Part shown: positions 7,413-28,480 of the stretch, in pieces
Layout: every line of letters starts with the position of its first letter
How positions within the stretch are numbered: position 1 is the first letter of the stretch
Source: Pseudomonadota bacterium
Lineage (GTDB): Bacteria; Desulfobacterota; Binatia; UBA9968
NCBI GenBank assembly: GCA_021324155.1
Contig: JAJPJQ010000005.1
Span: 1-36,609, forward strand
Direction of reading: 5' to 3'
Length of the DNA: 36,609 bases
Position numbers and translations under genes: made by a program
Notes under the pieces: model-generated
What the model was told of the DNA's origin: nothing
Database searches by the model: none
What the model saw: the letters and a program-made list of their open reading frames with translations, nothing else

Positions 7413-7420
7413 AATGCGAA

Positions 7421-8554
7421 TTATCCCAGCGCGGCGATTTCCTGCATGCTCGCGTCGAAGCTGATATTCTCGTTCTGCCGCGGGTCGCGGATGATCCAGA
7501 CCGGGTCTTTACCGTCGCGCACCGCGTCAATCGATTCTTTCAGCATATTGCGCAGCATGATCACGCCCTGGTCCGACGCGCCGAGGTGCTCCGTCGAGCG
7601 GTCGTAAATGAGCCCCTGGCTCTCCTGCGCGACGCGGTCCTGGTCGTGCGACGCGATGCCCCACCAGCCGTCGTCGACGCGGTCGTAAACGCCCGGCTTG
7701 TCGTTGTCGTAGCCCAGCGTCTTCATCACGAACGGCTTGCCGCGCTCCTCCTCCGTATATGGATAGAACCGCAGCCAGAATGTCATGGTCTTGGTGTCGT
7801 CCATCGGCACGCGGAAGCGGATCGCGTGGTCCGGCCGGCGCCCCTTGCGCGCGGTGGTGTGCCGCGTATGCGACGGGAATATCCAGTGCGAGAATTTCGG
7901 CTTCGTGACGCCCGGCACGTGCATGGAAATTTTCGCGCCGTAGTCGCGCCGCTCCCAGTCGATCTCCGGGCGCTTGAGCGCCATGTGCGGATATTCCGGC
8001 GCATGGAGCGCGACGAGATGGGTCTGATCGACGGAGTTCTCGGCGCGCTGGAGCCAGTTGCAACAGTCCTCGCCGGCGCCGAGATGCCGCTCGCCGTCCT
8101 CGCGCGAGAAAAGATCGTAGCGCGGAAGCAGCGGCGCGGGCTCGGGACCGAGATAGGCGAAGACAAAGCCACCGATCTCCTCGGCCTTGTAGGCCGGATG
8201 CTGGATGCGGTCCTTGAACGTGCTGCCTTCCGGCTCCGTCGGCTGCTCGACGCATTTGCCGGCGAGATCGTAGAGCCAGCCGTGATAGCAGCAGCGGATG
8301 CCGCACTCTTCCACGCGCCCGAATTCGAGCGACGTCCCGCGGTGCGAGCAGTGAAGCCCGAGGAGCCCGAGCCTGCCGTTGCCTGCGCGGAACAAAACGA
8401 GATCCTCGCCGAGCAATCGCACTTTCGCAGGCCGGCTTTTTTGCGTGACTTGCTCGCTGAAAGCGACCGGCCACCAGTAGCGCCTAAGCATCTCGCCGCC
8501 CGGCGTGCCGGGACCGACGCGCGTCAGCAGCTCGTTTTCTTCTTTCGACAGCAT
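7421..8554 (-). CDS. Rieske aromatic-ring oxygenase C, phthalate-dioxygenase-like
   Basis: A 377-residue oxygenase component. The Rieske [2Fe-2S] site is C69-x-H71 (HCSHRG) and C88-x-x-H91 (CCYHGW). The catalytic iron site is D176-x-x-H179-x4-H184 within ENSVDQTHLVALH; the conserved block DQDRVAQESQG and DRSTEHLG near the C-terminus fit the third ligand region of this group. The N-terminus (MLSKEENELLTRVGPGTPGG) closely follows the phthalate 4,5-dioxygenase oxygenase (Pht3/OphA2) family, which hydroxylates aromatic carboxylates using electrons from a separate reductase. The start ATG has a near-ideal AGGAGGAA ribosome site that overlaps the stop codon of binding protein B. Substrate unknown. 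No reductase gene is nearby, so electrons must come from elsewhere. Confidence 0.9.
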   Translation of the reverse strand: MLSKEENELLTRVGPGTPGGEMLRRYWWPVAFSEQVTQKSRPAKVRLLGEDLVLFRAGNGRLGLLGLHCSHRGTSLEFGRVEECGIRCCYHGWLYDLAGKCVEQPTEPEGSTFKDRIQHPAYKAEEIGGFVFAYLGPEPAPLLPRYDLFSREDGERHLGAGEDCCNWLQRAENSVDQTHLVALHAPEYPHMALKRPEIDWERRDYGAKISMHVPGVTKPKFSHWIFPSHTRHTTARKGRRPDHAIRFRVPMDDTKTMTFWLRFYPYTEEERGKPFVMKTLGYDNDKPGVYDRVDDGWWGIASHDQDRVAQESQGLIYDRSTEHLGASDQGVIMLRNMLKESIDAVRDGKDPVWIIRDPRQNENISFDASMQEIAALG

Positions 8555-8566
8555 CGCAACTTCCTC

Positions 8567-9637
8567 CTAAAGCTTCAGCATCTTCGCCAATTCTTCTTTG
8601 AACTGCAGGCCGCTGTCCTCGCCCTTGAGATAGAACGCGATGGATTCCTTCGCCTCCTGGAGCTTGATCCCGCTCTCCTTCACATAGCGCGCCATCTTCG
8701 TCCCCTCGACCAGATGCGACGAGACGAATTCATGCTTTTCGAGCAGCGCCTGCCCTTCTCTCGACGCGAGAAAGGCGACGAATAGTTTCGCGAGGTTGGG
8801 GTGCGCGGAGCTGCGCGGCACGCCGAGCTGAAAATACGACGGCAGCACCGGTGTCGAGCCGGGCACCGCGACGAGCGGCGCGCCTTTCGCCTGCCATTTC
8901 CACATCTGCTCGATCGCGCCGCCCATGTTGGCGGTGATCGCGAACTCGCCGCTGACAATGCGCTCCTCTTCGTTGTAGCGCAGCCGCCCGACCGACATCG
9001 GAATCAGCTTGCGCGCGAAGTCCTTCACCTTCTCCTCGCTCCAGATCATCGACATCTCGACGAGCCACGAGACGTATGGCGGGATCGCGAGCTTTCCCGC
9101 CCACGCGGGCGAGAGACGCGGGTCGACGAGGTCTTCGTAGCGCTTCGGCGCTTTGTCCTTCGGGATGAGAGTCGAGTTGTAGCTCATGCCGCGGAGCGAC
9201 GTGTAGACGAGCACGCCTTCGCGCGGGTAGATCTCCATCTCTTTCTTGATCCAAGGGAACGTCCCGGACCAGTCGACTTTCTCGAGCGCGTTCTGCTGAT
9301 GCAGCAGCGCGTAGTGCGACTGCGAGCCGAGATAGAAATCGGTCGAAGACTTGCTGCCGCTTTTCGCCTCGGTGATCACGCGCGCGGCCATCGCGTTCAT
9401 ATCCGGTCCGGCGGCGAAGTTGATGCGCGCCTTCAAGCCGTACTTCCTGTTGAAGGCCTCCTCGATCTCCGCCATCGCCTTCTTGCCGCCGAAGGTCTGC
9501 GCGCCGGCGATGAAGTTGAATTCCCCTTCCTTCTTCGCGGCGGCGACGATTTCATCGATGGTAGAGGCGCGCGCCGCGGAAACGGCCAGCGCGAGCAGCA
9601 AAAATGCCGGGAGACAGCTTCGCGGGATGTTCTTCAA
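8567..9637 (-). CDS. Periplasmic solute-binding protein B (family 1, FbpA-like)
   Basis: A 356-residue paralogue of the other two receptors. Signal peptide about 1-24 (LPAFLLLALAVSA, cleavage near ARA-STI), then STIDEIVAAAKKEGEFNFIAGAQTFGGKK, INFAAGPDMNAMAARVITE, STDFYLGSQSHYALL and SAHPNLAKLFVAF. The start codon is TTG (9635-9637) preceded by AGGCGGAG; no ATG fits before the signal peptide and the next methionine lies in the mature protein, so TTG is the best choice. It lies eight bases after oxygenase B and 12 before oxygenase C. Sequence differs from its siblings most in the middle (YTSLRGMSYNSTL, MIWSEEKVKDFARKLIPMSVG), where ligand contacts would be expected, suggesting a different ligand. 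That specificity claim is inference. Confidence 0.92.
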   Translation of the reverse strand: MKNIPRSCLPAFLLLALAVSAARASTIDEIVAAAKKEGEFNFIAGAQTFGGKKAMAEIEEAFNRKYGLKARINFAAGPDMNAMAARVITEAKSGSKSSTDFYLGSQSHYALLHQQNALEKVDWSGTFPWIKKEMEIYPREGVLVYTSLRGMSYNSTLIPKDKAPKRYEDLVDPRLSPAWAGKLAIPPYVSWLVEMSMIWSEEKVKDFARKLIPMSVGRLRYNEEERIVSGEFAITANMGGAIEQMWKWQAKGAPLVAVPGSTPVLPSYFQLGVPRSSAHPNLAKLFVAFLASREGQALLEKHEFVSSHLVEGTKMARYVKESGIKLQEAKESIAFYLKGEDSGLQFKEELAKMLKL

Positions 9638-9645
9638 CGCTCCGC

Positions 9646-10788
9646 CTAATCCAATAGATCTTCGTGCGGCACGAGCCGGATCATTTCGTTCTTCGCCGGG
9701 TCGCGCACGACGGCGATCGGATCGCGCCCGTTCTGGACCGCCTCGATCGATTCGCGGTAAAGCCGGCGCAGCAGGATGACGCCCTTGTCGGTCGCGCCCA
9801 AGTGCTCCGTCGAGCGGTCGTAGATCGCTCCCTGGCTTTCCTGGGCGGCGCGGTCCTGGTCGGCGCGCGCGAACCAGCCGATCGAGTCGTCCCAGCGGTA
9901 GACGCCGTGCTTGGTATCGACGATGCCCTGCTCAGACCGGTCTTCCATAATCTTGACGGTCTGGCCGTCGCGGGCAGCGCCGAACTCGACGGTGAAATGC
10001 ATCGAGGACGTGTCGTCCACCGGCACGCGCCAGCGCATCACCTCGCCCGCGCTGCTCGCGCGGTGCTCCGTCGGATGGCCTTCCTCGACGTTGCCGGTCT
10101 TGTTCATCGTCGGGAAGACGAAGTAATTGACGTGCGCCCATTTCTTGCCGTCGACGCGCCGCGTGTAGGTGTTGACGATGCCGTAGTCGAAAGGCTGTGG
10201 ATTGATCTCGCCGTCGTCCCACGTCGGCGTCGACGCGGTGCGGTGCAGCCATTTGAGATGGTGCTGGTCGACGGAGTTCTCGATCATCTGAAAAAAATTG
10301 CAATGCACGAGCCGCCCCTGGCGCGCACGCACGCCGTCCTCGCGTACGAGCACGTCCCAGCGCGGCAGGAGCGGCGCGGGGTCGGGCCCCAGATAGGCGA
10401 AGATGACGCCGCCCAGCTCCTCGACCTTATAGGCGCGCTGGCGCACGCGGTCTTTGAAATTGCTCTCAGGCGGCTCGCCGGGCTGTTCCATGACGCGGCC
10501 GTCGACGGCGTAGAGCCAGCCATGGTAGCAGCAGCGGATTCCTCCGTCCTCAATATGGCCGAACTCCAGCGACGTGCCGCGGTGCGCGCAGCGCAGCGTA
10601 AGCAAACCAAGCTTGCCGGCGTCGTCGCGGAACAGCACGAGGTCTTCGCCCAGCAGCCGCTTCTTCAACGGACGCTTTTTCAGCTCCGCGGCGAAGCCGA
10701 TCGGATGCCAATAGCGGCGCAGCATCTCGCCGGCCGGCGTGCCCGGACCGACACGAGTCAATAAATCGTTCTCTTCACGCGACAGCAT
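9646..10788 (-). CDS. Rieske aromatic-ring oxygenase B, phthalate-dioxygenase-like
   Basis: A 380-residue paralogue of oxygenases A and C. Rieske ligands C67, H69 (RCAHRG), C86 and H89 (CCYHGW); catalytic iron residues D174, H177 and H182 (ENSVDQHHLKWLH); C-terminal DQDRAAQESQG and DRSTEHLG blocks. The first residues (MLSREENDLLTRVGPGTP) match the Pht3/OphA2 group. I take the ATG at 10786-10788, with an AGAGG ribosome site six bases before it; the frame continues upstream into binding protein A, but that part is not family-like. It is nearer to oxygenase A than to C in the residues after the active site (LKWLHRT). All catalytic residues being intact argues against a decaying duplicate. It starts 17 bases after binding protein A. 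Confidence 0.9.
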   Translation of the reverse strand: MLSREENDLLTRVGPGTPAGEMLRRYWHPIGFAAELKKRPLKKRLLGEDLVLFRDDAGKLGLLTLRCAHRGTSLEFGHIEDGGIRCCYHGWLYAVDGRVMEQPGEPPESNFKDRVRQRAYKVEELGGVIFAYLGPDPAPLLPRWDVLVREDGVRARQGRLVHCNFFQMIENSVDQHHLKWLHRTASTPTWDDGEINPQPFDYGIVNTYTRRVDGKKWAHVNYFVFPTMNKTGNVEEGHPTEHRASSAGEVMRWRVPVDDTSSMHFTVEFGAARDGQTVKIMEDRSEQGIVDTKHGVYRWDDSIGWFARADQDRAAQESQGAIYDRSTEHLGATDKGVILLRRLYRESIEAVQNGRDPIAVVRDPAKNEMIRLVPHEDLLD

Positions 10789-10805
10789 GACGACCTCTTG
10801 AAATT

Positions 10806-11891
10806 TTATTGCTTGAGTATGTTCGCGAGCTCTTCCTTGAACTTGAGCCCCTCGCCGGTCTCGCTCTTGAGATAATAGTCGATCGACTGCTTGGGTTCCT
10901 GCAGCGCGACGCGGTTGTCGCGCAGGTACTTTGCCATCATCGTGCCTTCGACGAGATGCGAGCTGCGCGATTCGTTCTTTTGCAGGAGCGCCTGGCCTTC
11001 CTTCGATATCATGAACGCGACGAAGAGCTTGGCGAGATTCGGGTGCGCGGAATTTTTCGGCACGCCGAGCTGGAAATAATCGGTGTTGATCGGGTTGAGC
11101 CCGGGCACCGCGACGAGCGGCGCGCCCTTCGGCTGCCAATCCCACATGTGCTCGAGCGCGCCGCCGATGTTCGCCATAATGGGAAATTCGCCGCTGACGA
11201 CGCGCTCCTCCTCGTTGTAGCGCAAGCGCCCGGCGGAAAGCGCGACGACCTTGCGCGCGAAATCCTTTACCTTCTCAGGTCCCCAGACGAGCGACAATTC
11301 GGCGAGCCAGGCGACGTACGGCGGGATCGCCATCTTCCCGGCCCACGTCGGGCTGAGCCGCGGATCGACTAGATCGAGATAGTTTTTCGGGACTTTATCT
11401 TTCGGGATCAGACTGGAGTTATAAATGATGCCGTTGGGCGATGTGTAGACGAGCACCGTTTGCCCGGCAAAAAGCTCCATCTCTTTCGTAAGCCAGGGAA
11501 AAATCCCCGACCAATTCACCGTCTCGAGCGCGTTTTCTTTGTGCAGGAGAGCGAAATGCGATTGCGAGCCGAGGAAGAAATCGGAGGACGACTTTCTGCC
11601 CGCCTTGAATTCCGTAATGAGCCGCGCGGCCCGCGCGTTCATGTCCGGGCCGGCGGCGAAGTTGATGCGGAGCTTGAGGCCGAATTTTTTTTGGAACGCG
11701 CCCTCGATCTCGTTCATGCCTTTGCGGCCGCCGAAGGTCTGCGAGCCGGCGACGAAAATCAGTTCTTCGCCGTCCTTTTTCGCCGCCGCCGTGACCTGCT
11801 CCAAGCTCTCCGCAGCGATGGAAACATGCTGCGCGGCAAAGAAAGCGGCGCCGAGCGTCAGCGCCACGAGCGCCGTTTTATACGGCGGCAT
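10806..11891 (-). CDS. Periplasmic solute-binding protein A (family 1, FbpA-like)
   Basis: A 361-residue exported receptor, first of the three in transcription order. The signal peptide covers about 1-27 (TALVALTLGAAFFAAQ, ending near SIA-AES). The mature protein carries the shared blocks ELIFVAGSQTFGGRKG, INFAAGPDMNARAARLITE, SSDFFLGSQSHFALL, FPIMANIGGALEHMWDW and SAHPNLAKLFVAF. The first 14 bases of its reading frame overlap the end of oxygenase A, so the two are almost certainly translated together. There is no separate permease: the single permease at 4627-6345 must serve it. Members of family 1 bind ferric iron, sugars, polyamines or organic acids; the oxygenase partner favours an aromatic acid. 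Confidence 0.92.
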   Translation of the reverse strand: MPPYKTALVALTLGAAFFAAQHVSIAAESLEQVTAAAKKDGEELIFVAGSQTFGGRKGMNEIEGAFQKKFGLKLRINFAAGPDMNARAARLITEFKAGRKSSSDFFLGSQSHFALLHKENALETVNWSGIFPWLTKEMELFAGQTVLVYTSPNGIIYNSSLIPKDKVPKNYLDLVDPRLSPTWAGKMAIPPYVAWLAELSLVWGPEKVKDFARKVVALSAGRLRYNEEERVVSGEFPIMANIGGALEHMWDWQPKGAPLVAVPGLNPINTDYFQLGVPKNSAHPNLAKLFVAFMISKEGQALLQKNESRSSHLVEGTMMAKYLRDNRVALQEPKQSIDYYLKSETGEGLKFKEELANILKQ

Positions 11892-13056
11892 GGGCCAGCT
11901 CCGCTCCTTCGAGCTTATATTCGCCGGGCACCAGACGAAGGTTGTTTTTCTCCGGATCGCGAATAATGCCGATGGGGTCCTGACCGCTCCTCACCGCGTC
12001 GATCGATTGCTTCAACATGCGGCGCAGCAGAATGACGCCCTCGTCGGAGACGCCGAGATGCTCGGACGTCCGATCGAAGATCGGCCCCTGGCTCTCCTGC
12101 GCGCAGCGGTCCTGGTCGCCGCGCGCGATCCAGCCGGTCTCCTCGTCCCAGCGGTATTTTCCCGGCACGCTGTCGAGCAGTCCCTGCTCGCTCTGGTCGG
12201 CAGGCATGCGGCGCGGCGGCTTGCCGTCGACAAGCGGCCCGAAGTAGAGCGTGAAGTGCATCGTGCTGGTATCGTCGATCGCGACGCGCCAGCGGAGCGC
12301 CTCGTAGCCTTCGTGGGTCGCGGCGAACGCCGCCGGGTGATCCTCCGGCAGGTGATAGCCGACCTTGTTCATGTTCGGCATGAGAAAGAGGCTGATGGTG
12401 CGGTAATAGTCGTCGCCGACGCGGCGGGTAAACGTGTCGAGAATTCCCCACTCCTTCGCCTCGGAAGTGAGCTTCTCGTCGCGCCAGAGACGCGTCTTGG
12501 GCGTACGATGGAGCCATTTGAAATGGTGCTGATCGACGCTGTTCTCGACCATTTGCAGGAAGTTGCAGTGGACGATGCGCGCGTTGAGCGCGCGCACGCC
12601 GTCCTCTCTGACGAGGACATCGTAGCGCGGCAGCAGCGGCGCGGGATCGGGGCCGAGATACGCGAAGACGATGCCGGCAAGCTCCTGCACCTTGTATGCG
12701 GGCTGGCGGACGCGGCCTTTGTAGCTGCTGTCGGCCGGCTCCCCCGGCTGTTCGAGGACTTTGCCTTCGACGTCGTAAAGCCAGCCGTGATAGCAGCAGC
12801 GGAGCCCGCCGTCCTCGACGTGGCCGAACGCGAGCGAGGTGCCGCGATGCGCGCAGCGGAGCGTCAAGAGACCCGGGCGGCCGCGATCGTCGCGGAACAG
12901 CACGAGGTCTTCGCCCAACAGCCGCCGCTTGAGCGGCCGGTTCTTCAATTCGCGCGACAAGGCGATCGGCTGCCAGTAGCGTCTCAGCATCTCGCCGCCC
13001 GGCGTTCCGCGGCCGACGCGCGTGAGAGTCTCGTTCTCTTCGAAGCTCAGCGCCAT
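11878..13056 (-). CDS. Rieske aromatic-ring oxygenase A, phthalate-dioxygenase-like
   Basis: A 392-residue oxygenase, first gene of the operon. Rieske ligands are C68, H70 (RCAHRG), C87 and H90 (CCYHGW); the catalytic iron residues are D175, H178 and H183 (ENSVDQHHFKWLH). The C-terminal half keeps DQDRCAQESQG and DRTSEHLG. It belongs to the same group as oxygenases B and C. The ATG at 13056 has a GGAAGGGGAA ribosome site and lies about 55 bases after a possible promoter with a perfect TTGACA. The C-terminus extends some 12 residues beyond its siblings (EYKLEGAELAHAAV), and that tail is the part that overlaps the start of binding protein A, so the overlap was probably made when the gene pair was joined or duplicated. 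Confidence 0.9.
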   Translation of the reverse strand: MALSFEENETLTRVGRGTPGGEMLRRYWQPIALSRELKNRPLKRRLLGEDLVLFRDDRGRPGLLTLRCAHRGTSLAFGHVEDGGLRCCYHGWLYDVEGKVLEQPGEPADSSYKGRVRQPAYKVQELAGIVFAYLGPDPAPLLPRYDVLVREDGVRALNARIVHCNFLQMVENSVDQHHFKWLHRTPKTRLWRDEKLTSEAKEWGILDTFTRRVGDDYYRTISLFLMPNMNKVGYHLPEDHPAAFAATHEGYEALRWRVAIDDTSTMHFTLYFGPLVDGKPPRRMPADQSEQGLLDSVPGKYRWDEETGWIARGDQDRCAQESQGPIFDRTSEHLGVSDEGVILLRRMLKQSIDAVRSGQDPIGIIRDPEKNNLRLVPGEYKLEGAELAHAAV

Positions 13057-15760: not shown

Positions 15761-16363
15761 TCAGGGCGGGAACTTGGCCACGAGCTCCTCGAGACGGTCC
15801 TTGGCGTCTCTCAGGACGGGCTCGCCGTCACCCGTAAGGAGAATATCGAAATCGAGCACGAGCAGCGCTTCCACACTTTGCCGGAGCCGCGGCAGATCGT
15901 CGATGACCTTTTCCGGCAAAAGCGAACAGCGGCCGGGCGGATTGCCGATGACGGCGTCGCCGACGATCAGAATCCGTCGGTCGGGCCAGTGCAGCGCGAT
16001 TTCGCCGGGCGATTTCCCGGCGGCGGCGACGATGACGAGCGGGCCGATCTTGGCGCCGGCGCGGAGGTCGTCATCGATCACCGCGCCTTCCTTGCGTGCA
16101 TGCGGCGCGTCGGCGGGATGGATCGCGGTGCGCGCCCCGGTGCACTCGCGCACGATATTCGCCGCGCGCGAGTGATTGCGGTTCGTAATGATAGTGCGGG
16201 CGGCGCCGCGGCGCTCGATTTCCGCCAGGTCGTCGGCGCCGGGCTCGACCGGATCGATAACCAGGTTGCCGTCCGGGTGGACGATCAAATGGCCGTTGAA
16301 GTTATAGCCGTGCGGCTCGGAAAACCAAGGCCAGGTGAAGATGTCTTTTACAACCTCGCGCAT
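15761..16363 (-). CDS. Metallo-beta-lactamase-fold protein with degenerate metal motif
   Basis: A 200-residue cytoplasmic protein. The fold pattern is visible: an N-terminal strand set with NGHLIVHPDGNLVIDPV, then the position of the metal motif, then KSPGEIALHWPDRRILIVGDAVIG, the typical strand bearing the bridging aspartate, and LLTGDGEPVL near the end where a histidine ligand is usual. The canonical HxHxDH is replaced by TNRNHSRAAN, keeping only one histidine, so a normal two-zinc site is unlikely. It may bind a single metal, or act as a non-catalytic member. It starts 39 bases after the EutA-like gene on the same strand and probably shares its transcript. The ribosome site is weak. Substrate unknown. 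Confidence 0.7.
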   Translation of the reverse strand: MREVVKDIFTWPWFSEPHGYNFNGHLIVHPDGNLVIDPVEPGADDLAEIERRGAARTIITNRNHSRAANIVRECTGARTAIHPADAPHARKEGAVIDDDLRAGAKIGPLVIVAAAGKSPGEIALHWPDRRILIVGDAVIGNPPGRCSLLPEKVIDDLPRLRQSVEALLVLDFDILLTGDGEPVLRDAKDRLEELVAKFPP

Positions 16364-16402: not shown

Positions 16403-17989
16403 CTAATCGTCGTGGTGATGATGATGGTGATGATGGTGCCCGCGGCCGGTCTCCGTGTGACGGAAAATCAGCGACTTGATGACGACCGGAACCGCGCGCG
16501 CATCGGGCAACTCTTCCCCGATATCGACGAAGTCGAAATCCTTTAAGTCGATGCCGTCGATCGAGATGATGCCGGCGCCCGTCAACAGCTCCCTTTCGAG
16601 AATGTTGCCGACGAGCTTCGCGATGTCGGCGTCGAAAACAAGCACCAGCGGCTGTCCCTTGTCGACGTGGTCCTTCATCGCGTCGGCGACGCCCTGCGCA
16701 AGATTGCGGATGAGCGGATACGACGGGCCTAGCTCCCAGTGGAGCGCGAGCGCGACGGGCCGCTCGCCGTCGATGTCGAAGCGCTGGAGCGCCTTCGTAA
16801 CGGCCGCAGTGACCGCGCCCGGCGTAAGCGGCTCGACCTGCTCGAACTCCGGCGTGATGACCTGAAGATTCCGCAGCGGCAGGAGATCGGGGTGTGACAG
16901 GTAGATCGTGTTGCCGCTCACCTGAACAGTGTACTGCGACGCGCCGATGACGGTCGCGCGAATGCGCACGTCGGGGTTCTTGAGGGGGATTTTCTTCCCG
17001 AACTTCTCCGCCGCCTCGCGCACGCGCCGGCCGAGCTGGTTGCCGAGATCGCCGAGATTCCGCTTCTCGTTCCCGTAGATGTATTCCGAGACGCCTCCTG
17101 AGAACATGATGGCGTCGACTTTGTCGGTGTAATCGAGATTGGGCGTGAGCAGCAGGTTCTGGACGAACGGCGAGAGCTTGCCGCGCTCGAGGACCGCGAA
17201 GAGCGAATCGCAAAGCAGCTCGGACATTTTTTCTTTTTCGCCGTCGCTCATCGTGCCGCCGATCTTGAGATCGATGCCGGCCTGTTTGGCGATCTTTACG
17301 CCTGTGTCTTCCAGCCGGTTGATCTTGCCCTGCTCGTCCATCGCGACGAGCCGCGCGCCGACTTCGACGGCGCATGTATCGACGACCTTGCCGTTCTGCG
17401 TGATCGCGACTTTGCTCGTGCCGCCGCCGATATCGACGTTCATGACGGTGTAGTTGTTGCCTTCGTGCATGGTGAGATGCACCGCGCCCGAACCGTAGGC
17501 GGCGAGAATCGCCTCGAGATTGTGGCCGGCGGTCGCGCAGACGAATTTGCCCGCCTCGGTGGAGAAGAGCTCGGCGATCGCGTCGGCGTTTTTCTTCTTC
17601 GCCGCCTCGCCGGTGACGATGACCGCGCCGGTGTCGATGTCCTTCGGCGTGACGCCGGCTTTCTGATACGACTCGCGAATGAAATCGCGCAGCTTGTTGG
17701 TGTCGATCGTCGTCTTGTCGACGTACGGCGTCAGCAGAATCGGCGACTCGTGCAATATCTCGCGTTTGACAACGACGAAGCGGCTGGAGAGCGCGATGCC
17801 CTGGCGCCGCAGCAGCAGGCGGGAAAAAATCAGATGCGACGTGGAAGAGCCGATGTCGATTCCCACCGATGTGAGCTGGATCCGCTCCGATTTCCACATC
17901 GGGTGGTCTTCGTCCATCGGCATCTCATCGCCTTCTTCGTCGTCGTATTCGTCATGGAGGTAGTATTCCTCGGCTGTCGGCTCAGACAT
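16403..17989 (-). CDS. eutA: EutA-like ASKHA reactivating factor with acidic head and polyhistidine tail
   Basis: A 528-residue protein of the EutA family, which uses ATP to release damaged cobalamin from ethanolamine ammonia-lyase. The ASKHA phosphate motif GIDIGSSTSHL is at 43-53 and MNVDIGGGTSK forms the second phosphate loop; MFSGGVSEYIYG is the adenosine-side motif. The start is ATG at 17989 behind AGAGGA; earlier codons in frame are not family-like. Two additions are unusual: an acidic first 32 residues (DEYDDEEGDEMPMDED), and nine consecutive histidines followed by DD at the very end (codons a mix of CAC and CAT). No eutB/eutC is in the window, so the client enzyme is unknown and may be another B12 enzyme. 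The tail could bind nickel, zinc or cobalt (inference). Confidence 0.82.
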   Translation of the reverse strand: MSEPTAEEYYLHDEYDDEEGDEMPMDEDHPMWKSERIQLTSVGIDIGSSTSHLIFSRLLLRRQGIALSSRFVVVKREILHESPILLTPYVDKTTIDTNKLRDFIRESYQKAGVTPKDIDTGAVIVTGEAAKKKNADAIAELFSTEAGKFVCATAGHNLEAILAAYGSGAVHLTMHEGNNYTVMNVDIGGGTSKVAITQNGKVVDTCAVEVGARLVAMDEQGKINRLEDTGVKIAKQAGIDLKIGGTMSDGEKEKMSELLCDSLFAVLERGKLSPFVQNLLLTPNLDYTDKVDAIMFSGGVSEYIYGNEKRNLGDLGNQLGRRVREAAEKFGKKIPLKNPDVRIRATVIGASQYTVQVSGNTIYLSHPDLLPLRNLQVITPEFEQVEPLTPGAVTAAVTKALQRFDIDGERPVALALHWELGPSYPLIRNLAQGVADAMKDHVDKGQPLVLVFDADIAKLVGNILERELLTGAGIISIDGIDLKDFDFVDIGEELPDARAVPVVIKSLIFRHTETGRGHHHHHHHHHDD

Positions 17990-18176: not shown

Positions 18177-21100
18177 ATGGGTCAGGAAGAGTACACCGAA
18201 CTAGCTTCGTTTCTGCGCCGCTTCATCGGCCGTTTCCGCGCCGTCAAAGCGCTCGAAGGGCTGTGCCTTTTCGGCATCGCGGTCGTGCTGCTCTTCTCGC
18301 TCGGTCTCGCGGTCAAGGAAATCAAACATTTCTTCCCATACGCGGCGGCGATCTACACCGTGCTCGCCGCCGCGGCTTTGATCGCGCCGCTCGCGTGGAC
18401 GGTCTTTCAGCTGTGGCGGCGCGTGTCCAATGAATGGGCGGCGCTCTACATCGAGCGGCAATGCCCGCAGCTCAAGAACAACCTCATCAACTCGCTCCAG
18501 CTCTATCCCGAAATCGCCCGGCCCGAGCGGCCGGCCGAGATTTCCGCGTCGATGATCCTCGCGCTGCTGCGCTCGACGCGGCGGCAAATTCATTCGCTCA
18601 AGGCCGAGGAGCTCGTCAGCACCGGGCCGGCGTTCGCCAAGGGCCGGCTGCTCGCGATTCTCTTCGTGCCGGTGCTCGCGGTCGTGCTGTTCAATCCGTC
18701 CTCCGTGAGCGACACCTTCAGCCTGCTCGCGCATCCGCTGAAGGACATCCCGCCCTCGGAGACGCGGATCGATCTCGCGCCCAAGGGCATGCGCATCGCG
18801 CGCGGCGACGCCGTGACGCTGCAGGCCACGGCAGCGGGCGCGATTCCGAAAACGATGGATCTCTGGGTCGCGCGCGAAGGCGCGGCGCCCGAGCGGCTTA
18901 CAATGGAAGCCGCAGGCGGCGGCAAATTCACCGCGACGCTGAACGACGTGAAAGAGAGCTTTTCGTATCGCGCCGTCGCTGGAACATTCTCTTCGCCTAG
19001 CTACCGGCTCGAAGCGGTCGATCCCCCGGAGGTCGGCAATCTGCGCGCGACGCTCTATCCGCCCAACTACACCGGCCTCGCGGCGGAAAGTATCCAGGGC
19101 GGCAACCTCGAAGGACTGCGCGGCTCGACCGTGCGCCTCGAGGCCGAGACTAGCAAGGAAGTCGTCAAGGCGAAGCTCGTCCTCGATCAGGGCAAAGAAG
19201 TGCCGCTCAAAATCGACGGCAAAACCTTGCAGGGCAATCTCGTGATGTTCCAATCCGGCCGCTATCACATCGAGGTCGAGGACGCGCTCGGGTTCCACAA
19301 CCATCCGATCGCCTACGACATCCGCATACGCCCCGACGGCTTCCCGACGGTCGAGATCCTCAAACCGACGGAGGATCTCGAAGTCAACGGCGACGAGACC
19401 CTGTCGCTCGAATTCACCGCGCGCGACGATTTCGGCATTCAAGAAGCCGCGCTCGTCGTCAAGGTCGGCGGCCGCGAGGAAAAAATCCCCATCAGGCTCG
19501 ACAGCGTAAAGAAGCTGATTCCCCGCGAGCGCTTCGACATCGACCTCGGCCGCCTCGGCCTTAGCGAAGGAAGCGAAGCGATCTACAATATTGAAGTGCG
19601 GGACAACGACACGATCTCCGGGCCGAAGATCGGCGTCTCGCGCGGCTTGCGCCTCACGCTCAAGAATATCCGCGGCGAGCACCAGCAGGTCGCCGAGACG
19701 ATCCGCGATCTTTCGAACAAGATGATGGATGCCCTCGGCGAGCATCTGGAGCGGCCGGCCGATAAGAACGCCGACTCGGCTTTCGAGAAAAAGCTCGGCG
19801 ACATGTCGAAGAGCATCGAAGAGCTCATGAAGCGGAGCGCGAAAGACCGCCTCACCGATTTCGCCACCTATTCGGATCTGGAAGCGCTCAAGCGCAACCT
19901 CGAATACACCAAGAATGATCTCTTGCAGCGCGAAGCGCAGGCGACCGGCGAAGAAAAGGAAAAGGCGCGCGACGACGTCTCGACCGAGCTCGAGCGCATG
20001 TCGATGCTCGCGGAGGATATCGGCAAACGCCTCAAGGCCGAGGAGGTCGCCAATTCCGCGCGCGACCTCATGAAGAGCCAGGAGCGGCTCATGGATGCCC
20101 TCGACAAGCTTCAGAGCGGAGACAAGAATCTCGACGCCATCCTAAAGCAGCTTTCGCAGATGGCGAACCTCTTGAACTCGCTCCAGCGCTCGCTCTCGCA
20201 GATGGCGACCCAGCTGCCGGACGATTTCGTCAATAGCGAGGCGCTTCAGGGGCTCAATTTCGGCGACATGCAGCGCATGATGGACGAGATTCGCAAGAAG
20301 CTGGCGCAAGGCGACATCGAGGGCGCCATGCAGCTCGCGCGCGAGCTGTTCAACCAGATGGCGTCGATGGTCGCGGCGCTCCAGAACGCGAACCAGTCCG
20401 CGATGTCTTCGAGCATGGGGCGCATGCAGGGCGAGATGATGCGCTCGGCCAACGAGCTGCAGCAGCTGGCACGCGAGCAGCAGGACCTGCTCGTCGAGAC
20501 GGAGGCCGCGAACCGGCGCGCGCTCACCGAGCGCGAGAACGTGCTCAAGGAAAAGCTCGAGCGCTTCATGCAGAAAGCGAACCGCGACCTCTCGCGCATG
20601 GCCGAGGCCTTCCCGGACGTCGAAGGCGGCGGTCCGCCGCGTGAGGACGCGCTCGACGATGCGACCGTCAACAATCTCGTGAAGGAGATGATCGGGCGTC
20701 TGCTTAGGAAGGATTTCTCCGGCTTCGATGAAATCATGGGCCTGACGCAAAAGGAGCTCGACAAAAAACGCGCGCCGCAGCAGGAGGCCAAAGCCGGTCA
20801 GGCGCAGGCGAGCCTGAAAGACTTGAAGAGCGAGCTCGACGCGCTGCTCGGTATTCCCGCCGCGGAGCTCAAGGACTCCGAGCGGAGCGGTCTGCGCGAC
20901 CTCGAGCGCCGCCAGGGCGCGCTCAAGCAACGGACCGACCAGCTGCACGAGAAATTAGAGTCGCTGTTCCAGCTCTTCCCCTCTCTCGATCCGCAGATCA
21001 CGAAGAACATCAAGGAAGCCGGCGGCTCGATGGGCAACGCGCAAGGACGGCTCGGCGAGCTCGACTCCAAGGGCGCCGTGCCGCCGGAGCGGCGCGCGCT

Positions 21101-21440
21101 CGAACAGCTTTCGCAGTCGCAGCAGCAGATGCAGAGCGCCATGCAGCAGATGGCGCAGCGCGGGCAGCTCGGGCGCATGGCGGTGTCGCGCCTTTTCAGA
21201 ATGGGGCGCATGCTGCCGTCCGGCGAGCTCGTGCCGCTGCCCGGGATTCCGCAGCTGCCGCAGTTCGACGCCGAGGGCGGCATGACCGGCCTCGACACCG
21301 AGAAATTCCGCCTGCCGGGCAAAGAAGACTATCGCGCGCCGCGGAGTTTCCGCGAGGAAATTCTGGAGTCGCTCAAGCAGGGCGTGCCGCGCCAGATGAA
21401 AGAGCAGATCGAGAACTATTTCAAAAATCTCTCAGAGTAG
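18177..21440 (+). CDS. DUF4175-family large membrane protein
   Basis: A 1087-residue inner-membrane protein, first gene of the MoxR/vWA cluster. Two membrane segments lie at about 27-46 and 54-76 and a third at about 158-175, the N-terminal pattern of DUF4175. A beta-rich periplasmic stretch follows (about 180-500). From about 500 to 1030 the sequence is highly charged and rich in Q, M, E and K (for example QSQQQMQSAMQQMAQRG), predicted as long coiled coil. The ATG at 18177 has only a weak AAGG site; a better GGAG lies before an out-of-frame ATG at 18157 that opens a 15-codon frame. Family function is unknown; its constant company with MoxR, DUF58 and vWA genes suggests an envelope scaffold or client of that system. 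Confidence 0.85.
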   Translation: MGQEEYTELASFLRRFIGRFRAVKALEGLCLFGIAVVLLFSLGLAVKEIKHFFPYAAAIYTVLAAAALIAPLAWTVFQLWRRVSNEWAALYIERQCPQLKNNLINSLQLYPEIARPERPAEISASMILALLRSTRRQIHSLKAEELVSTGPAFAKGRLLAILFVPVLAVVLFNPSSVSDTFSLLAHPLKDIPPSETRIDLAPKGMRIARGDAVTLQATAAGAIPKTMDLWVAREGAAPERLTMEAAGGGKFTATLNDVKESFSYRAVAGTFSSPSYRLEAVDPPEVGNLRATLYPPNYTGLAAESIQGGNLEGLRGSTVRLEAETSKEVVKAKLVLDQGKEVPLKIDGKTLQGNLVMFQSGRYHIEVEDALGFHNHPIAYDIRIRPDGFPTVEILKPTEDLEVNGDETLSLEFTARDDFGIQEAALVVKVGGREEKIPIRLDSVKKLIPRERFDIDLGRLGLSEGSEAIYNIEVRDNDTISGPKIGVSRGLRLTLKNIRGEHQQVAETIRDLSNKMMDALGEHLERPADKNADSAFEKKLGDMSKSIEELMKRSAKDRLTDFATYSDLEALKRNLEYTKNDLLQREAQATGEEKEKARDDVSTELERMSMLAEDIGKRLKAEEVANSARDLMKSQERLMDALDKLQSGDKNLDAILKQLSQMANLLNSLQRSLSQMATQLPDDFVNSEALQGLNFGDMQRMMDEIRKKLAQGDIEGAMQLARELFNQMASMVAALQNANQSAMSSSMGRMQGEMMRSANELQQLAREQQDLLVETEAANRRALTERENVLKEKLERFMQKANRDLSRMAEAFPDVEGGGPPREDALDDATVNNLVKEMIGRLLRKDFSGFDEIMGLTQKELDKKRAPQQEAKAGQAQASLKDLKSELDALLGIPAAELKDSERSGLRDLERRQGALKQRTDQLHEKLESLFQLFPSLDPQITKNIKEAGGSMGNAQGRLGELDSKGAVPPERRALEQLSQSQQQMQSAMQQMAQRGQLGRMAVSRLFRMGRMLPSGELVPLPGIPQLPQFDAEGGMTGLDTEKFRLPGKEDYRAPRSFREEILESLKQGVPRQMKEQIENYFKNLSE

Positions 21441-21446
21441 TTCGTC

Positions 21447-23084
21447 TTGAAATTCGACATTTTCCGCAGAGCATCCGTCGCTTACGTACCCGCCTGCGCG
21501 TTGGCGTTTTTTTTCGCCGCGTTAACGCGACCGCCGTCCGCCTTCGCCGCCGAAGCAAAGCCGGGTGCGGAGGCGAACCCGCGCGTCGCCGAGGCCGAGG
21601 AGCGCCTCGAGGCCTGGCGCATCGGCGAGGCGGAGAAAATCTCCGCCGCGCTGCTGAAGGAATCTCCGCGCTCGGCCGACGCGCTCGCGCTCGCTGCCGA
21701 GGTGGCGTTCTACCAGGGCCACTACGACGAGGCGGCCCGGCTCGCCGAGCAGGCGCTCGCCGGCGATTCGGCGAACGAGAGGCGCCAGGCGCTCCGCATC
21801 CGCACGCAGCGCTCGCGCGACATCGTCGGGAAGATGAAGCGCTACGAGAGCGAGCACTTCCTCCTCTACCTCGATGAGGCCAAGGACGGCCTGCTCGCGC
21901 CGTATGCGCTCGACACGCTGGAAAAAAGCTACCGCATCCTCGGTCAGACCCTCGGCTATATGCCGGCCGAGAAAGTCCGCGTCGAGATCGCTCCCGACTC
22001 GCTCTCGTTCAACGGCATCTCGACACTGTCGCGCCGCGATATCGAGGAGACCGGCGCCGTCGGCATCTGCAAGTTCAACAAGGTGATGATCATCTCGCCG
22101 CGGGTGCTGCTCCAAGGCTACCGCTGGCTCGATTCGCTGAGCCACGAGTACGCGCACTACGTCATCGTCGGGGCGAGCGACAACAAGACGCCGATATGGC
22201 TGCACGAGGGCCTCGCGCGCTACTACGAGACTTTGTGGCGCAGGACAGACAAGGCGAAGGCCGCGCTCGATTATCTCTCGCCCGCGAATCAGACCCTGCT
22301 CGCGCACGCGCTCGACAAAAACAGCTTCGTCGGCTTCAAGAAAATGGAGCCGTCGCTGATTTACTTGGATACGCCCGAGCAGGTGCAGCTCGCCTATGCC
22401 GAGGCGGCGTCCGCCGTCGATTTTCTGGTGAGCCGCAAGGGCGAGGGGGGCCCGCGCGACCTATTGGCCGTCGTGAAAACGCGGCCGACGCCCGAGGCGA
22501 TCGAGAAGGTCCTCGCCGAGCCGTACGCCGCGTTCGAGAAGGATTGGAAGGAGTTCTTGAAGGCCAAGCAGCTCAAGCCGGTCGAGGGAAGCCGCGTGCG
22601 GCGCCTGAAAATCGTCGAAGGACAAAAAGAACAGGAAGATGTCGTCGAGCTGAAGGAGATTCAATCCGCCGTCGCGCGCAACCGCACGCATCTCGGCGAC
22701 GAGCTCCAGCAGCGCGGCAGAATCGTCGGGGCGACGGAAGAGTATCGCCGCGCCTTGCAGGCAAGCCCGGGTTCCCCTATTATTCTCGGGAAACTCGCGC
22801 GGGTTCTCATTCGGCAGTCGCGCTATCAGGAGGCGCTGCCGCATCTGCAAAAGGCGCTCGAGCTCGATCCGGATTCGGTCAGCGCTTACGTTCAGCTCGG
22901 CCGCCTCCACCACGCGAACAAGGAATTCGCCGCGGCCAAGGCCGATCTGGAGGAAGCGCTCCAGATCAATCCTTTCAATCCGGAGATCTACGGGATGCTC
23001 GCCGATGCGTATGCCGCGCTCGGCGATCAGGAGCAGGCGAAGCGCGCGAAAGCGAACCTGGAACGACTCGCGCGGGGACGTTAG
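21447..23084 (+). CDS. Exported gluzincin-like metallopeptidase with TPR repeats
   Basis: A 545-residue protein starting with TTG at 21447, six bases past the previous stop. A signal peptide is clear (ALAFFFAALTRPPSAFA, cleavage near AFA-AEA). Residues 50-125 form a first helical repeat region (ADALALAAEVAFYQGHYDEAARLAEQA). The central domain holds a zinc-peptidase motif HEYAH (233-237) with WLHEGLARYYE (251-261) supplying the glutamate ligand, as in the MA-like gluzincins. The last 130 residues are TPR units (YRRALQASPGSP, LPHLQKALELDPDS, ADLEEALQINPFNP). It probably acts in the periplasm on envelope proteins. The next gene, moxR, starts 11 bases later, so one operon is likely. Confidence 0.82.
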   Translation: MKFDIFRRASVAYVPACALAFFFAALTRPPSAFAAEAKPGAEANPRVAEAEERLEAWRIGEAEKISAALLKESPRSADALALAAEVAFYQGHYDEAARLAEQALAGDSANERRQALRIRTQRSRDIVGKMKRYESEHFLLYLDEAKDGLLAPYALDTLEKSYRILGQTLGYMPAEKVRVEIAPDSLSFNGISTLSRRDIEETGAVGICKFNKVMIISPRVLLQGYRWLDSLSHEYAHYVIVGASDNKTPIWLHEGLARYYETLWRRTDKAKAALDYLSPANQTLLAHALDKNSFVGFKKMEPSLIYLDTPEQVQLAYAEAASAVDFLVSRKGEGGPRDLLAVVKTRPTPEAIEKVLAEPYAAFEKDWKEFLKAKQLKPVEGSRVRRLKIVEGQKEQEDVVELKEIQSAVARNRTHLGDELQQRGRIVGATEEYRRALQASPGSPIILGKLARVLIRQSRYQEALPHLQKALELDPDSVSAYVQLGRLHHANKEFAAAKADLEEALQINPFNPEIYGMLADAYAALGDQEQAKRAKANLERLARGR

Positions 23085-23095
23085 GAAGACGATCG

Positions 23096-24124
23096 ATGGA
23101 GTCGACAGCCATAAACGACAAAGAGATCGCCGCGATCGAGGAGTTCGCCGCGAAGCGCGACGCCATGCTCGCGGAGATCGGCAAGGTGATCGTCGGACAG
23201 GACAAAGTCATCGAAGAGGTGCTGACCGCGCTTTTCTCGCGCGGCCACTGCCTGCTCGTCGGCGTCCCCGGCCTCGCGAAGACGCTGCTCATCAGCACGC
23301 TCGCGGAGATTCTCGATCTCGACTTCAATCGCATCCAGTTCACGCCGGACCTGATGCCGTCGGATATCACCGGCACCGATATTCTTCAGGAGGATCCGGC
23401 GACCGGCCGGCGCAAGTTCCAGTTCATGCAGGGACCGGTCTTCACCAATATTCTCCTCGCCGACGAGATCAACCGGACGCCGCCGAAGACTCAGGCGGCG
23501 CTGCTCCAGTCGATGCAGGAGTACAAAGTCACCGCCGGCGGGCAGACCTTTCCGCTCGAGCTGCCGTTTTTCGTCCTCGCGACGCAGAACCCGATCGAGC
23601 AGGAAGGCACGTACCCGCTGCCCGAGGCGCAGCTCGACCGCTTCATGCTCGAGATCGAGATTCAGTATCCGCCGTTCGACGACGAGATTCAGATCGTCAT
23701 GCAGACGACCTCGATCGGCCGTCCCAAGCCGAACAAGGTGATGGACGGCGCGGCGATCCTGCGCTATCAGGAGCTCGTGCGGCGCGTCCCCGCCTCGCCT
23801 TTCGTCGTCGGCTACGCCGTCGCGCTCACGCAAAGCTCGCGTCCGAAAAACGGCGCCGCGCCGCAGTTCGTCAGGGACTACATCGAGTGGGGTGCGGGCC
23901 CGCGCGCGTCGCAGTATCTCATCCTCGGCGCGAAGGCGCGCACGATTCTTCAAGGCCGCTACGCCGTCTCGATCGAAGACATCCAGGCGATGGCGCCCTC
24001 CGTGCTCCGCCACCGCATCATCCCGAATTTCAAAGCCCAGGCCGACGGCCTCTCCTCGCTCGATATCATCGGCCGCCTGCTCGCCGAAGTGAAGCCGCAG
24101 GAAGACGGGAAAGCGAAGCGGTAG
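23096..24124 (+). CDS. moxR: MoxR-family AAA+ ATPase
   Basis: A 342-residue chaperone-like ATPase. Walker A GVPGLAKT (56-63), Walker B ILLADEINR (119-127), the sensor-1 region ATQNPIEQEGTYPLPEAQLDRFM and the lid helix motif near RASQYLILGAKA are all intact. MoxR proteins remodel or insert metal into vWA-domain partners, which here follow as the DUF58 and BatA-like genes. The ATG at 23096 is preceded by GGAAG; the frame is open far upstream, but that is read-through of the peptidase gene in another frame. Length and sequence are typical, with nothing odd. Confidence 0.95.
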   Translation: MESTAINDKEIAAIEEFAAKRDAMLAEIGKVIVGQDKVIEEVLTALFSRGHCLLVGVPGLAKTLLISTLAEILDLDFNRIQFTPDLMPSDITGTDILQEDPATGRRKFQFMQGPVFTNILLADEINRTPPKTQAALLQSMQEYKVTAGGQTFPLELPFFVLATQNPIEQEGTYPLPEAQLDRFMLEIEIQYPPFDDEIQIVMQTTSIGRPKPNKVMDGAAILRYQELVRRVPASPFVVGYAVALTQSSRPKNGAAPQFVRDYIEWGAGPRASQYLILGAKARTILQGRYAVSIEDIQAMAPSVLRHRIIPNFKAQADGLSSLDIIGRLLAEVKPQEDGKAKR

Positions 24125-24138
24125 TTAAAGATCATCGC

Positions 24139-24660
24139 TTGCCGCTGCTTCGCTCACTCGCAGACCTCCTCTTCAGAAAATCCACGATCATCGCCGGCAT
24201 CGAAGTCCGCGGCCGCTCCGAGTTCATCCGGCGCAGCGAGGAAGCGCTGGCGCTTCTGCGGGATCTGCCGCAATTTGCGGACATCCAGCGCCACATCGCG
24301 ATCATCAAGCAGGGCCGCCGCAGCGGCATGTGGGCGCAGAAAAATCGCCCGACCTTCGTTGTCGGTAGGCGGACGTGGAGCCATTCGGCGCTCTGGTACG
24401 CCGGCGCGATCGCGCACGACGCGTACCACTCGAAGCTCTATCACGACGCGCGGCGCGAGAGCGCGAAGCCGCCGGCCGATTGCTGGACCGGGCCGGAAGC
24501 GGAGCGCGAATGCCTCGGCTATCAGATCGAAGCGCTGAAGGCGCTCGGCGCCGACGACGCCACGGTTGCTTATCTGGAGAAATTGCGAAAAAATCCAACC
24601 TACCAAGGTCACCACAAAGGCTGGCGCAGCTGGCGGGATTACCTCCGGCGCAGCTGGTGA
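24139..24660 (+). CDS. Unrecognised 173-residue protein inside the MoxR cluster
   Basis: I do not recognise this family. The best start is TTG at 24139, 14 bases after moxR; no ATG or GTG suits. The first 20 residues are moderately hydrophobic and basic (PLLRSLADLLFRKS). The centre has a compact set of conserved-looking residues: MWAQKNRPTFVVGRRTWSHS, then AIAHDAYHSKLYHD with several histidines spaced like a metal site, then a glutamate in EAERECLGYQIEALKALGA and the closing WRDYLRRSW. A histidine-rich helix followed by a downstream glutamate recalls zinc peptidases, but the HExxH motif is absent. Its position between moxR and the DUF58 gene is worth noting, since those two are usually adjacent. 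Confidence 0.65.
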   Translation: MPLLRSLADLLFRKSTIIAGIEVRGRSEFIRRSEEALALLRDLPQFADIQRHIAIIKQGRRSGMWAQKNRPTFVVGRRTWSHSALWYAGAIAHDAYHSKLYHDARRESAKPPADCWTGPEAERECLGYQIEALKALGADDATVAYLEKLRKNPTYQGHHKGWRSWRDYLRRSW

Positions 24661-24684
24661 AGCGACCGGGGTTTAACGTCAAAA

Positions 24685-25584
24685 ATGGCTGCCACCGCCG
24701 ACGGTAATAAAAGCTACTTCGACCCGCTCGTCCTTGCGCGGCTGTCGAATCTTTACCTCAAAGCGCGCTGGGTCGTCGAAGGGATGATGTCCGGCATTCA
24801 CCGGAGCCGCTCGAAGGGCTTCAGCGTCGAGTTCGAGGAGCACCGGGAATACTCGCCGGGCGACGAGATCCGCCGCATCGACTGGAAGGCGCTCGGAAAA
24901 TTCGACCGCTATTTCATCAAGGAGACCGAAGACGAGACGAACCTGCGCGCGACGCTGATCCTCGACGGCAGCGCCTCGATGGACTACGGCTCGAACGGCG
25001 TGACCAAGTTCGAGTACGCCTCGATCCTGACCGCGTCGCTCGCGTATCTGATCCTCAAGCAGCAGGACGCCGCCGGCGTCGCGACGTTCTCGGACAAGAT
25101 CGACGCGTTCGTGCCGCCGCGCGCGAAGCGCGGCTACGTCTTCGAGATCCTGCGGGCGCTCGAAGCGCACCGGCCTGCCGGCGAGACGAACGCCGGAAAG
25201 ATTCTCCAGGAGATCGCCGGCAAGATGCACCGGCGCGGGCTCGTGATTCTTGTCTCCGATCTTCTCGACGATACGGAAAATGTTCTCAACGGCCTCCGGC
25301 TCTTTCGCTTCAGCGGTCATGACGTGATCGTCTTCCACGTCATGGACACCGCCGAGATCGACCTGCCGTTCGACGGCAATATCCTGTTCGAGGACCTCGA
25401 GCTGCCCGACCTCAGAGTGACCGCCGACCCGCAGACCATCCGCGAGGTCTACCGCGGCGTGGTGAACGAGTTCATCGACCACGTGCGCAAGGAATGCCAC
25501 GCGGCCATGATCGATTATCAGCTCGTCTCGACCGCGACGCCGCTCGACCGCGCGCTCGTGAGCTATTTGGGCTGGAGAGCCTAG
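24685..25584 (+). CDS. DUF58 protein with von Willebrand A-like domain
   Basis: A 299-residue cytoplasmic protein. The DUF58 core EHREYSPGDEIRRIDWKA (52-69) is followed by a metal-adhesion motif D94-G-S96-A-S98 (ILDGSASMDYG), then the vWA-like remainder through LVILVSDLLDD and DVIVFHVMD. These proteins are standard partners of MoxR ATPases, which act on their vWA domain. ATG at 24685 is 24 bases after the small unknown gene. The stop at 25582-25584 is three bases before the next ATG, so it is clearly in one transcript with the BatA-like gene. Confidence 0.93.
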   Translation: MAATADGNKSYFDPLVLARLSNLYLKARWVVEGMMSGIHRSRSKGFSVEFEEHREYSPGDEIRRIDWKALGKFDRYFIKETEDETNLRATLILDGSASMDYGSNGVTKFEYASILTASLAYLILKQQDAAGVATFSDKIDAFVPPRAKRGYVFEILRALEAHRPAGETNAGKILQEIAGKMHRRGLVILVSDLLDDTENVLNGLRLFRFSGHDVIVFHVMDTAEIDLPFDGNILFEDLELPDLRVTADPQTIREVYRGVVNEFIDHVRKECHAAMIDYQLVSTATPLDRALVSYLGWRA

Positions 25585-25587
25585 TCG

Positions 25588-28468: not shown

Positions 28469-28480
28469 AGAAGATTTCTC

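Follow-up and report, generated by a model that had tools for sequence, protein, structure and literature searches.

A histidine-tailed EutA-like ATPase without ethanolamine ammonia-lyase, and the bicupin genes that accompany its wider branch

EutA, the reactivase of ethanolamine ammonia-lyase, is described to remove damaged cobalamin from EutBC (PMC5821096). The window analysed here (the whole stretch of DNA, which is one entire contig of 36,609 bases from a 4.80 Mb, 53-contig, 98% complete genome) carries a EutA-like gene with no ammonia-lyase near it, and the question is what such a protein serves. A first-pass annotation had suggested that it belongs to a EutA branch occurring without ethanolamine ammonia-lyase, that it reactivates a different cobalamin enzyme, and that it handles cobalt or nickel.

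A EutA-family protein apart from the ethanolamine system

The open reading frame runs on the minus strand from an ATG at 17989 to a stop at 16403 (Table 1), its product ending in GRGHHHHHHHHHDD, and the plus-strand frame of the same interval is interrupted by stops. A further in-frame ATG lies upstream at 18178; 17989 is the likelier start because a start at 18178 would overlap the divergent gene starting at 18177. The Pfam EutA model (PF06277) covers residues 38–509, the full core, with 431.6 bits. The NCBIfam EutA equivalog cut-offs were missed (best score 373.7 against 598 bits), and three sister NCBIfam EutA models gave 212–271 bits against cut-offs of 769–952. Judged by its sequence, the protein is a member of PF06277, yet it fails the tests made for functional EutA.

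Table 1. Positions of the EutA-like gene, its motifs and its nearest neighbours in the window.
Feature	Position	Strand	Remarks
EutA-like ASKHA ATPase gene	16403..17989	-	528 aa; ORF and Pfam
Acidic head, residues 1–32, with His-Asp/Glu motif and D-E-[DEN]-H-P-M-W	17894..17989	-	
Phosphate-1-type motif GIDIGSST	17840..17863	-	residues 43–50; alignment
Phosphate-2-type motif NVDIGGGT	17417..17440	-	residues 184–191; alignment
Adenosine-type motif FSGGVSE	17084..17104	-	residues 296–302; alignment
Nine-histidine run at C terminus, then Asp-Asp and stop	16412..16438	-	
Metallo-beta-lactamase-fold protein gene	15761..16363	-	directly downstream of EutA-like gene
Divergent DUF4175 gene	18177..21440	+	first of MoxR/DUF58/BatA-type cluster

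The three nucleotide motifs, which we take to be of phosphate-1, phosphate-2 and adenosine type, are invariant or nearly so in an alignment of the genome's four full EutA-like paralogues, in keeping with the first-pass reading of the ASKHA motifs as intact. The predicted structure, a modest model from 4 rows (mean pLDDT 75, falling below 50 at residues 1–33 and 512–528), has an ASKHA fold by Foldseek, with PDB matches that include exopolyphosphatase, an HgdC-type activator, PilM, MreB, EutJ and a glucokinase. A PDB sequence search with the protein returned no EutA structure, and its weak matches to the tail resemble expression tags. HypB/UreG-type nickel-insertion GTPases are defined by a P-loop GTPase fold; the window protein, ASKHA by both Pfam and Foldseek, does not have it. 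Its closest named relatives (approximately 68–79% identity) come from MAGs titled Deltaproteobacteria or Candidatus Binatia, and one titled Syntrophobacter.

Ethanolamine ammonia-lyase was not found beyond the immediate surroundings either. EutB (PF06751) gave no match in the 98% complete host genome, with a positive E. coli control, and was found in only 6 of 50 genomes bearing the branch; in none of the six did it share a contig with a listed EutA match. A classical EutA that has merely lost its neighbours is ruled out by this absence from the host genome and from 44 of the 50 others. The earlier observation that no ammonia-lyase lies nearby can thus be extended to the genome, where eutBC, looked for through EutB, was not found, and the suggestion of a EutA branch occurring without ethanolamine ammonia-lyase is supported.

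The tree agrees with this separation. Six yardstick EutA genes, taken as outgroup, are divided from the other 98 rows by a branch with SH-aLRT 99, long branches being flagged; four of the six have annotated eutB and eutC, and the stretches of the other two carry no annotation. The window gene does not group with the EutA genes adjoining eutBC. Its own branch is monophyletic (16 rows, SH-aLRT 100) and joins a bicupin-adjacent gene, L051, from a MAG titled Chloroflexi with SH-aLRT 92, below the 95 mark, and by tree position the window gene falls within a bicupin-associated EutA-like branch. The earliest split in the EutA-like tree separates a gene from a Thorarchaeota MAG (L102) that may represent a third EutA type; its flanks, 1.5 kb on one side and 8 kb on the other, gave no cupin match, and its genome gave none to EutB.

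Around the window gene, two neighbours recur. The metallo-beta-lactamase-fold gene is present in 17 of 40 own-branch records (a redundant set with many short flanks) and in 0/11 records of the branch's family 3. Of the 35 own-branch records that reach 1.4 kb or more upstream, in which some genomes are counted twice, 31 have the DUF4175 gene next to the EutA-like gene. The DUF4175 gene opens a large cluster (18177–30712) of DUF4175, peptidase/TPR, MoxR-like AAA+ ATPase, DUF58, BatA-like VWA, DUF4159 and GATase-like genes. MoxR/VWA pairs have been described to insert metal into other enzymes (PMC9976466, PMC13036017), and their link to the EutA-like gene is one of position only. Elsewhere on the minus strand, 6342–13056 holds repeated genes for solute-binding proteins and Rieske oxygenases (some by Pfam, others by reading), with ABC permease/ATPase genes after them and two T2SSE-family (PilT/PilU-like) ATPases before, and looks like a tandem duplication of an uptake-plus-oxygenase unit.

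The acidic head and the histidine tail

Both unusual ends reported in the first-pass annotation are borne out by translation: an acidic head of about 32 residues, 14 of the first 32 being D or E, and a terminus of nine histidines and two aspartates. Because the nine histidine codons mix CAC and CAT, no simple DNA repeat underlies the tail, and an origin as a microsatellite is excluded by these mixed codons together with the conservation of histidine among relatives. Head and tail were compared in 27 distinct own-branch rows, one of which (L019) loses its tail at a contig end. The tail is no chance feature: all 16 rows of the window protein's own family with a readable tail have 3 to 10 histidines after the core, and in all 16 histidine is retained as the neighbouring tail letters change; the single family-2 row has 2, and 9/9 family-3 rows have only 1, so that a histidine tail is not universal in the branch. 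The head pattern H[DE][GED][HYD] is present in 27/27 rows, family 3 included, as is H-P-M-W-[RK]-S-E-R farther along, within which H-P-M-W is invariant. Family 3 is a sister family without the histidine tail and with the His/Asp head. The survey of relatives that had been proposed as a check on these features therefore upheld the tail within the own family and the head throughout, and lack of conservation of the tail, which had been named as evidence against the idea, was found in part, in family 3.

Histidine-rich ends also recur in the wider branch, as heads such as MHD..DHDH and as long tails of up to 29 histidines in 71 residues. Three or more tail histidines occur in 24 of 104 tree rows, for which the fewest changes on the tree number 5, and 66/104 rows have three or more among the 45 residues preceding the core, where part of the sequence may be untranslated. 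The six yardstick EutA genes end no more than 4 residues past the core, and no histidine occurs in that stretch. In 52 adjacent pairs of EutA-like and bicupin genes, the number of histidines in the EutA head and in the N-terminal extension of the bicupin showed a rank correlation of -0.58: the extension has a mean of 1.7 histidines in 22 pairs with two or fewer in the EutA head, and of 0.13 in 30 pairs with three or more. Start codons here come from the ORFs alone, and the pattern runs along clades and hence represents a few events at most, but such complementarity fits a shared metal-collecting arm borne by either partner.

A probable bicupin partner of the wider branch

The three other EutA-like copies of the host genome sit beside cupin genes. 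Loci were drawn from the best 80 of 478 confirmed ones, together with plasmid records, and searched with a bicupin model built from 74 cluster members. Outside the own branch, 59 of 84 full-length EutA-like genes have a bicupin match within 300 bp on the same strand, the match of one of them (L012) being weaker, at 85 bits, and falling on a different two-domain cupin, and 72/84 have one within 8 kb; the set counts one record twice (L041, L119) and several genes of one genome, and some of its misses lie near contig ends. None of the six yardstick EutA genes has a match in 6 kb flanks. The adjacent pairs come from records titled Binatia, Chloroflexi, Alpha- and Betaproteobacteria, Armatimonadota and Actinobacteria. 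Two loci added later (L131, L132) have no bicupin match; in both, EutA is followed by a gene of the NicO family and then, within 1 kb of EutA, by a single-domain cupin. Genes of the annotation-free plasmid records L123 and L129 come from our own ORF calls, and the GC3 filter used in gene calling left out some genes at low GC, NicO in L131 and L132 among them.

The two genes also occur together at the level of whole genomes. From the order of Aromatoleum (presumably Burkholderiales in GTDB), 300 genomes were drawn evenly, with the best 4 and best 6 candidates per genome scored. Branch-type EutA (>360 bits) was found in four (G141, G289, G326 and G439), and a bicupin match above 300 bits in exactly these four; none of the other 296 had a bicupin match above 50 bits, nine having only weak cupin matches below 50 bits, and five with weaker EutA-like matches (98–242 bits) had no bicupin among the matches listed. 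Without G141, the chosen centre, agreement is 3/3 in 299 genomes. Among 72,556 plasmid records, bicupin is present in 4, the same 4 with a EutA approximately 43% identical to the window protein, and in none of 21 other EutA-bearing records (≤34.6% identity). In the class of the host genome (97 genomes), EutA-like genes were found in 35/35 sampled members of its order, the host included, and in 0/62 from the other orders; bicupin was found in 35/35 genomes with EutA and 0/62 without, a contrast that amounts to one event because all 35 belong to one order. The host genome itself has at least 20 bicupin-model matches at E ≤ 1e-20 (20 of 72 candidates scored).

For the window gene the case is less direct. 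No cupin lies beside it, with more than 16 kb available on each side, and the idea that one was overlooked by a single model was dismissed when a second search, with six other cupin seeds, also found none. Near own-branch genes in general the bicupin model matched in 0/44 rows, 28 of these loci having a flank of approximately 1.5 kb or less. Our confidence in a bicupin partnership for the window gene itself is lowered because no cupin adjoins it.

Pfam Cupin_2 matches the cupins beside the EutA-like genes of the host genome, 3/4 of them above cut-off. Of three compared with NCBIfam, two weakly match gentisate or 5-aminosalicylate dioxygenases, far below cut-off, and the third matches none. The bicupin model fold (pLDDT 82, TM approximately 0.45) is nearest to the manganese bicupins oxalate decarboxylase and MncA and to seed globulins. 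Four histidines, H250, H252, H295 and H297, are invariant in 74/74 cluster members and, by reading of the predicted model, would lie in the second barrel; they suggest a bare metal site, not a corrinoid. Neighbours of the pairs (107 chosen ORFs: 106 of the nearest 130 among 272, plus the NicO gene of L118, added deliberately, so that the tally is uninformative on NicO) are mainly transporters and enzymes of organic- or aromatic-acid breakdown, a catabolic setting that fits an iron dioxygenase equally well.

Some individual loci are also of note. On contig C42 of the host genome (L010, 4472–13035) a run resembling F420 biosynthesis, with CofD and a radical SAM gene by Pfam and other genes by reading, lies a few genes upstream of a bicupin-EutA pair. 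A bicupin-EutA-bicupin set in L011 (7850–17892) follows genes read as ATP synthase, an order that recurs, with the same ORF clusters before EutA, in L090, L095, L097 and L121, and in L101 without a called bicupin. The densest cluster found, on a contig of Aromatoleum toluclasticum (L134), has three EutA-like genes, two bicupins and a NicO permease within approximately 11.5 kb, with a third bicupin and small cupins farther along, and offers a good cultured test case.

Candidate metal, mechanism and rival explanations

Genes for nickel uptake and regulation lie near a minority of pairs. NicO-family genes number 50 in the 50 branch-bearing genomes (58 rows merged by hand); 6 above the family cut-off lie within 6 kb of a EutA-like gene, or 8 with weaker matches, where 0.79 would be expected at random (p ~1e-4, or 1e-6 with the weaker matches, values that overstate independence and use rounded genome sizes). 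Independent cases number about five, because L131 and L132 are syntenic relatives; another locus shares a genome with one of them. By the time the 50 genomes were chosen from 67 loci, nickel genes were already known in L111, L113, L116 and L118, and all four were kept; the 17 dropped comprised own-branch loci, short loci and a small remainder. A regex scan served solely to find nickel-transporter candidates, and HupE near L111 and L123 was left out of the enrichment count. In Noviherbaspirillum humi a bicupin-EutA pair has NikR next to it, and NikR is also near one pair in Phyllobacterium zundukense, where a HoxN/HupN/NixA permease adjoins EutA; after a second Phyllobacterium pair come a LysR gene and a putative metal transporter of the TerC family. 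Across the 50 genomes, 1 of 18 NikR matches is near EutA. In the host genome NicO is matched only below threshold (24.7 bits against a cut-off of 27.7), at a site approximately 24 kb from the EutA-like gene of contig C42. Nickel is thus a plausible leading candidate for the metal, a lead rather than a result, and to that extent the earlier proposal of cobalt or nickel handling gains from the recurrent histidine-rich ends and the enrichment of nickel/cobalt permeases nearby.

We regard it as an even prospect that the branch comprises EutB-independent, EutA-family ASKHA ATPases that serve cupins, chiefly the four-histidine bicupin, by metal loading or reactivation. In such a mechanism, the His/Asp-rich head and the histidine tail would act as flexible arms gathering a divalent metal, with nickel the leading candidate. 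ATP would bind in the ASKHA site, whose motifs are intact, and the protein would dock on the bicupin, as gene order and co-occurrence suggest strongly for the branch and indirectly for the window copy. ATP binding or hydrolysis would then open or clamp the bicupin, by analogy with EutA, so that a wrong, oxidised or missing metal, tentatively nickel, could be exchanged at the four-histidine site. The three sister copies would work beside their own adjacent cupins, the window copy having kept a single chromosomal place, divergent from the MoxR/VWA cluster; in what is the weakest step, it may be a generalist that serves the many bicupins of the genome in trans.

The same partnership could instead centre on iron or manganese, the ATPase reactivating oxidised metal in ring-cleaving bicupin dioxygenases and the nickel genes being incidental. 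This reading overlaps the one above in all but the metal, and we regard it as possible, if the less probable; the weak dioxygenase matches of some cupins, the manganese bicupins among fold neighbours, the catabolic neighbourhoods and the ABC transporters near several pairs, which we take to be of Fe3+-like type, all suit it, and the NicO enrichment and the NikR genes next to two pairs tell against it. A larger departure would give the EutA-like protein no part in metal handling and make it a kinase whose phosphorylated product the bicupin goes on to convert. Many ASKHA proteins are kinases, a glucokinase is among the fold matches, the neighbours are catabolic enzymes and acid transporters, and the strict co-occurrence would suit an obligate two-part enzyme; we nevertheless hold this unlikely, since four EutA-like genes to at least 20 bicupin-model matches in the host genome is a chaperone-like ratio and a kinase leaves no place for histidine-rich arms or nickel permeases.

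The ends themselves could be neutral low-complexity sequence or passive metal sponges, an interpretation that is silent on the function of the core. The strong variation in tail length and letters and the tailless family 3 speak for it. With histidine kept in 16/16 own-family rows, at least five changes of the histidine tail on the tree, and a tendency, at clade level, for histidine-poor EutA heads to pair with histidine-bearing bicupin extensions, it seems somewhat more doubtful still than a kinase. Least probable of all, and improbable in absolute terms, is the first-pass proposal that a different B12 enzyme is reactivated while the tail handles cobalt: membership of the EutA family by Pfam favours it, and NicO proteins can carry cobalt, but EutB, the B12 enzyme surveyed, is absent from the host genome and 44 of 50 others, co-occurrence with the bicupin is exact, and NikR is by name a nickel regulator. 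The partner indicated by gene order and co-occurrence is the bicupin, and a different cobalamin enzyme is not supported by a survey that covered EutB.

Known systems resemble parts of the proposed metal-loading ATPase. The window protein shares with EutA its Pfam family over the core, its ASKHA motifs and its predicted fold, but differs in having no EutB in its genome, scores below the equivalog cut-offs, an additional head and tail and a separate branch on the tree, and the wider branch, unlike EutA, partners a bicupin. Histidine-rich tails are named for SlyD and UreE, nickel maturation factors (PMC7055735), and the proteins studied here, presumed maturation factors with a histidine-rich end whose genes sometimes lie close to nickel permeases or NikR, resemble HypB, UreE and SlyD in these respects; unlike in those systems, the nucleotide-binding protein here is of ASKHA type and the presumed client is a cupin rather than urease or hydrogenase. 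The cupin dioxygenase QueD, a nickel quercetinase, needs a 3His/1Glu or 4His environment to form the Ni, Co or Mn holoenzyme (PMC4416304), and a cupin metal site is likewise predicted in the bicupins here. These appear, by reading, to belong to a different family with four invariant histidines, and the abstract on QueD mentions no helper ATPase (PMC4416304). Among the papers listed from the open-access literature, judged by title and opening lines of the abstract, none was seen to join this EutA branch with cupins or nickel.

It is conceivable, though we put it no higher than a tentative proposal, that these proteins form a previously unrecognised class of ASKHA-type, ATP-driven metallochaperones that load or repair nickel in a large bicupin family, the window copy being a housekeeping form that stands alone and bears a histidine metal arm of its own. 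The branch genes carry a EutA annotation in databases, one that, should the bicupin link hold, points to the wrong enzyme and the wrong cofactor. That link gives an orphan ATPase branch a clear client and provides a testable helper for cupin metalloenzymes, in which the choice of metal is an acknowledged question (PMC4416304); it may also point to a new nickel enzyme in degraders of organic and aromatic acids. Because 11 of the 35 genomes from the host order have at least 20 bicupin matches, the lowest count being 4, the system may matter for a good share of the metabolism of that order.
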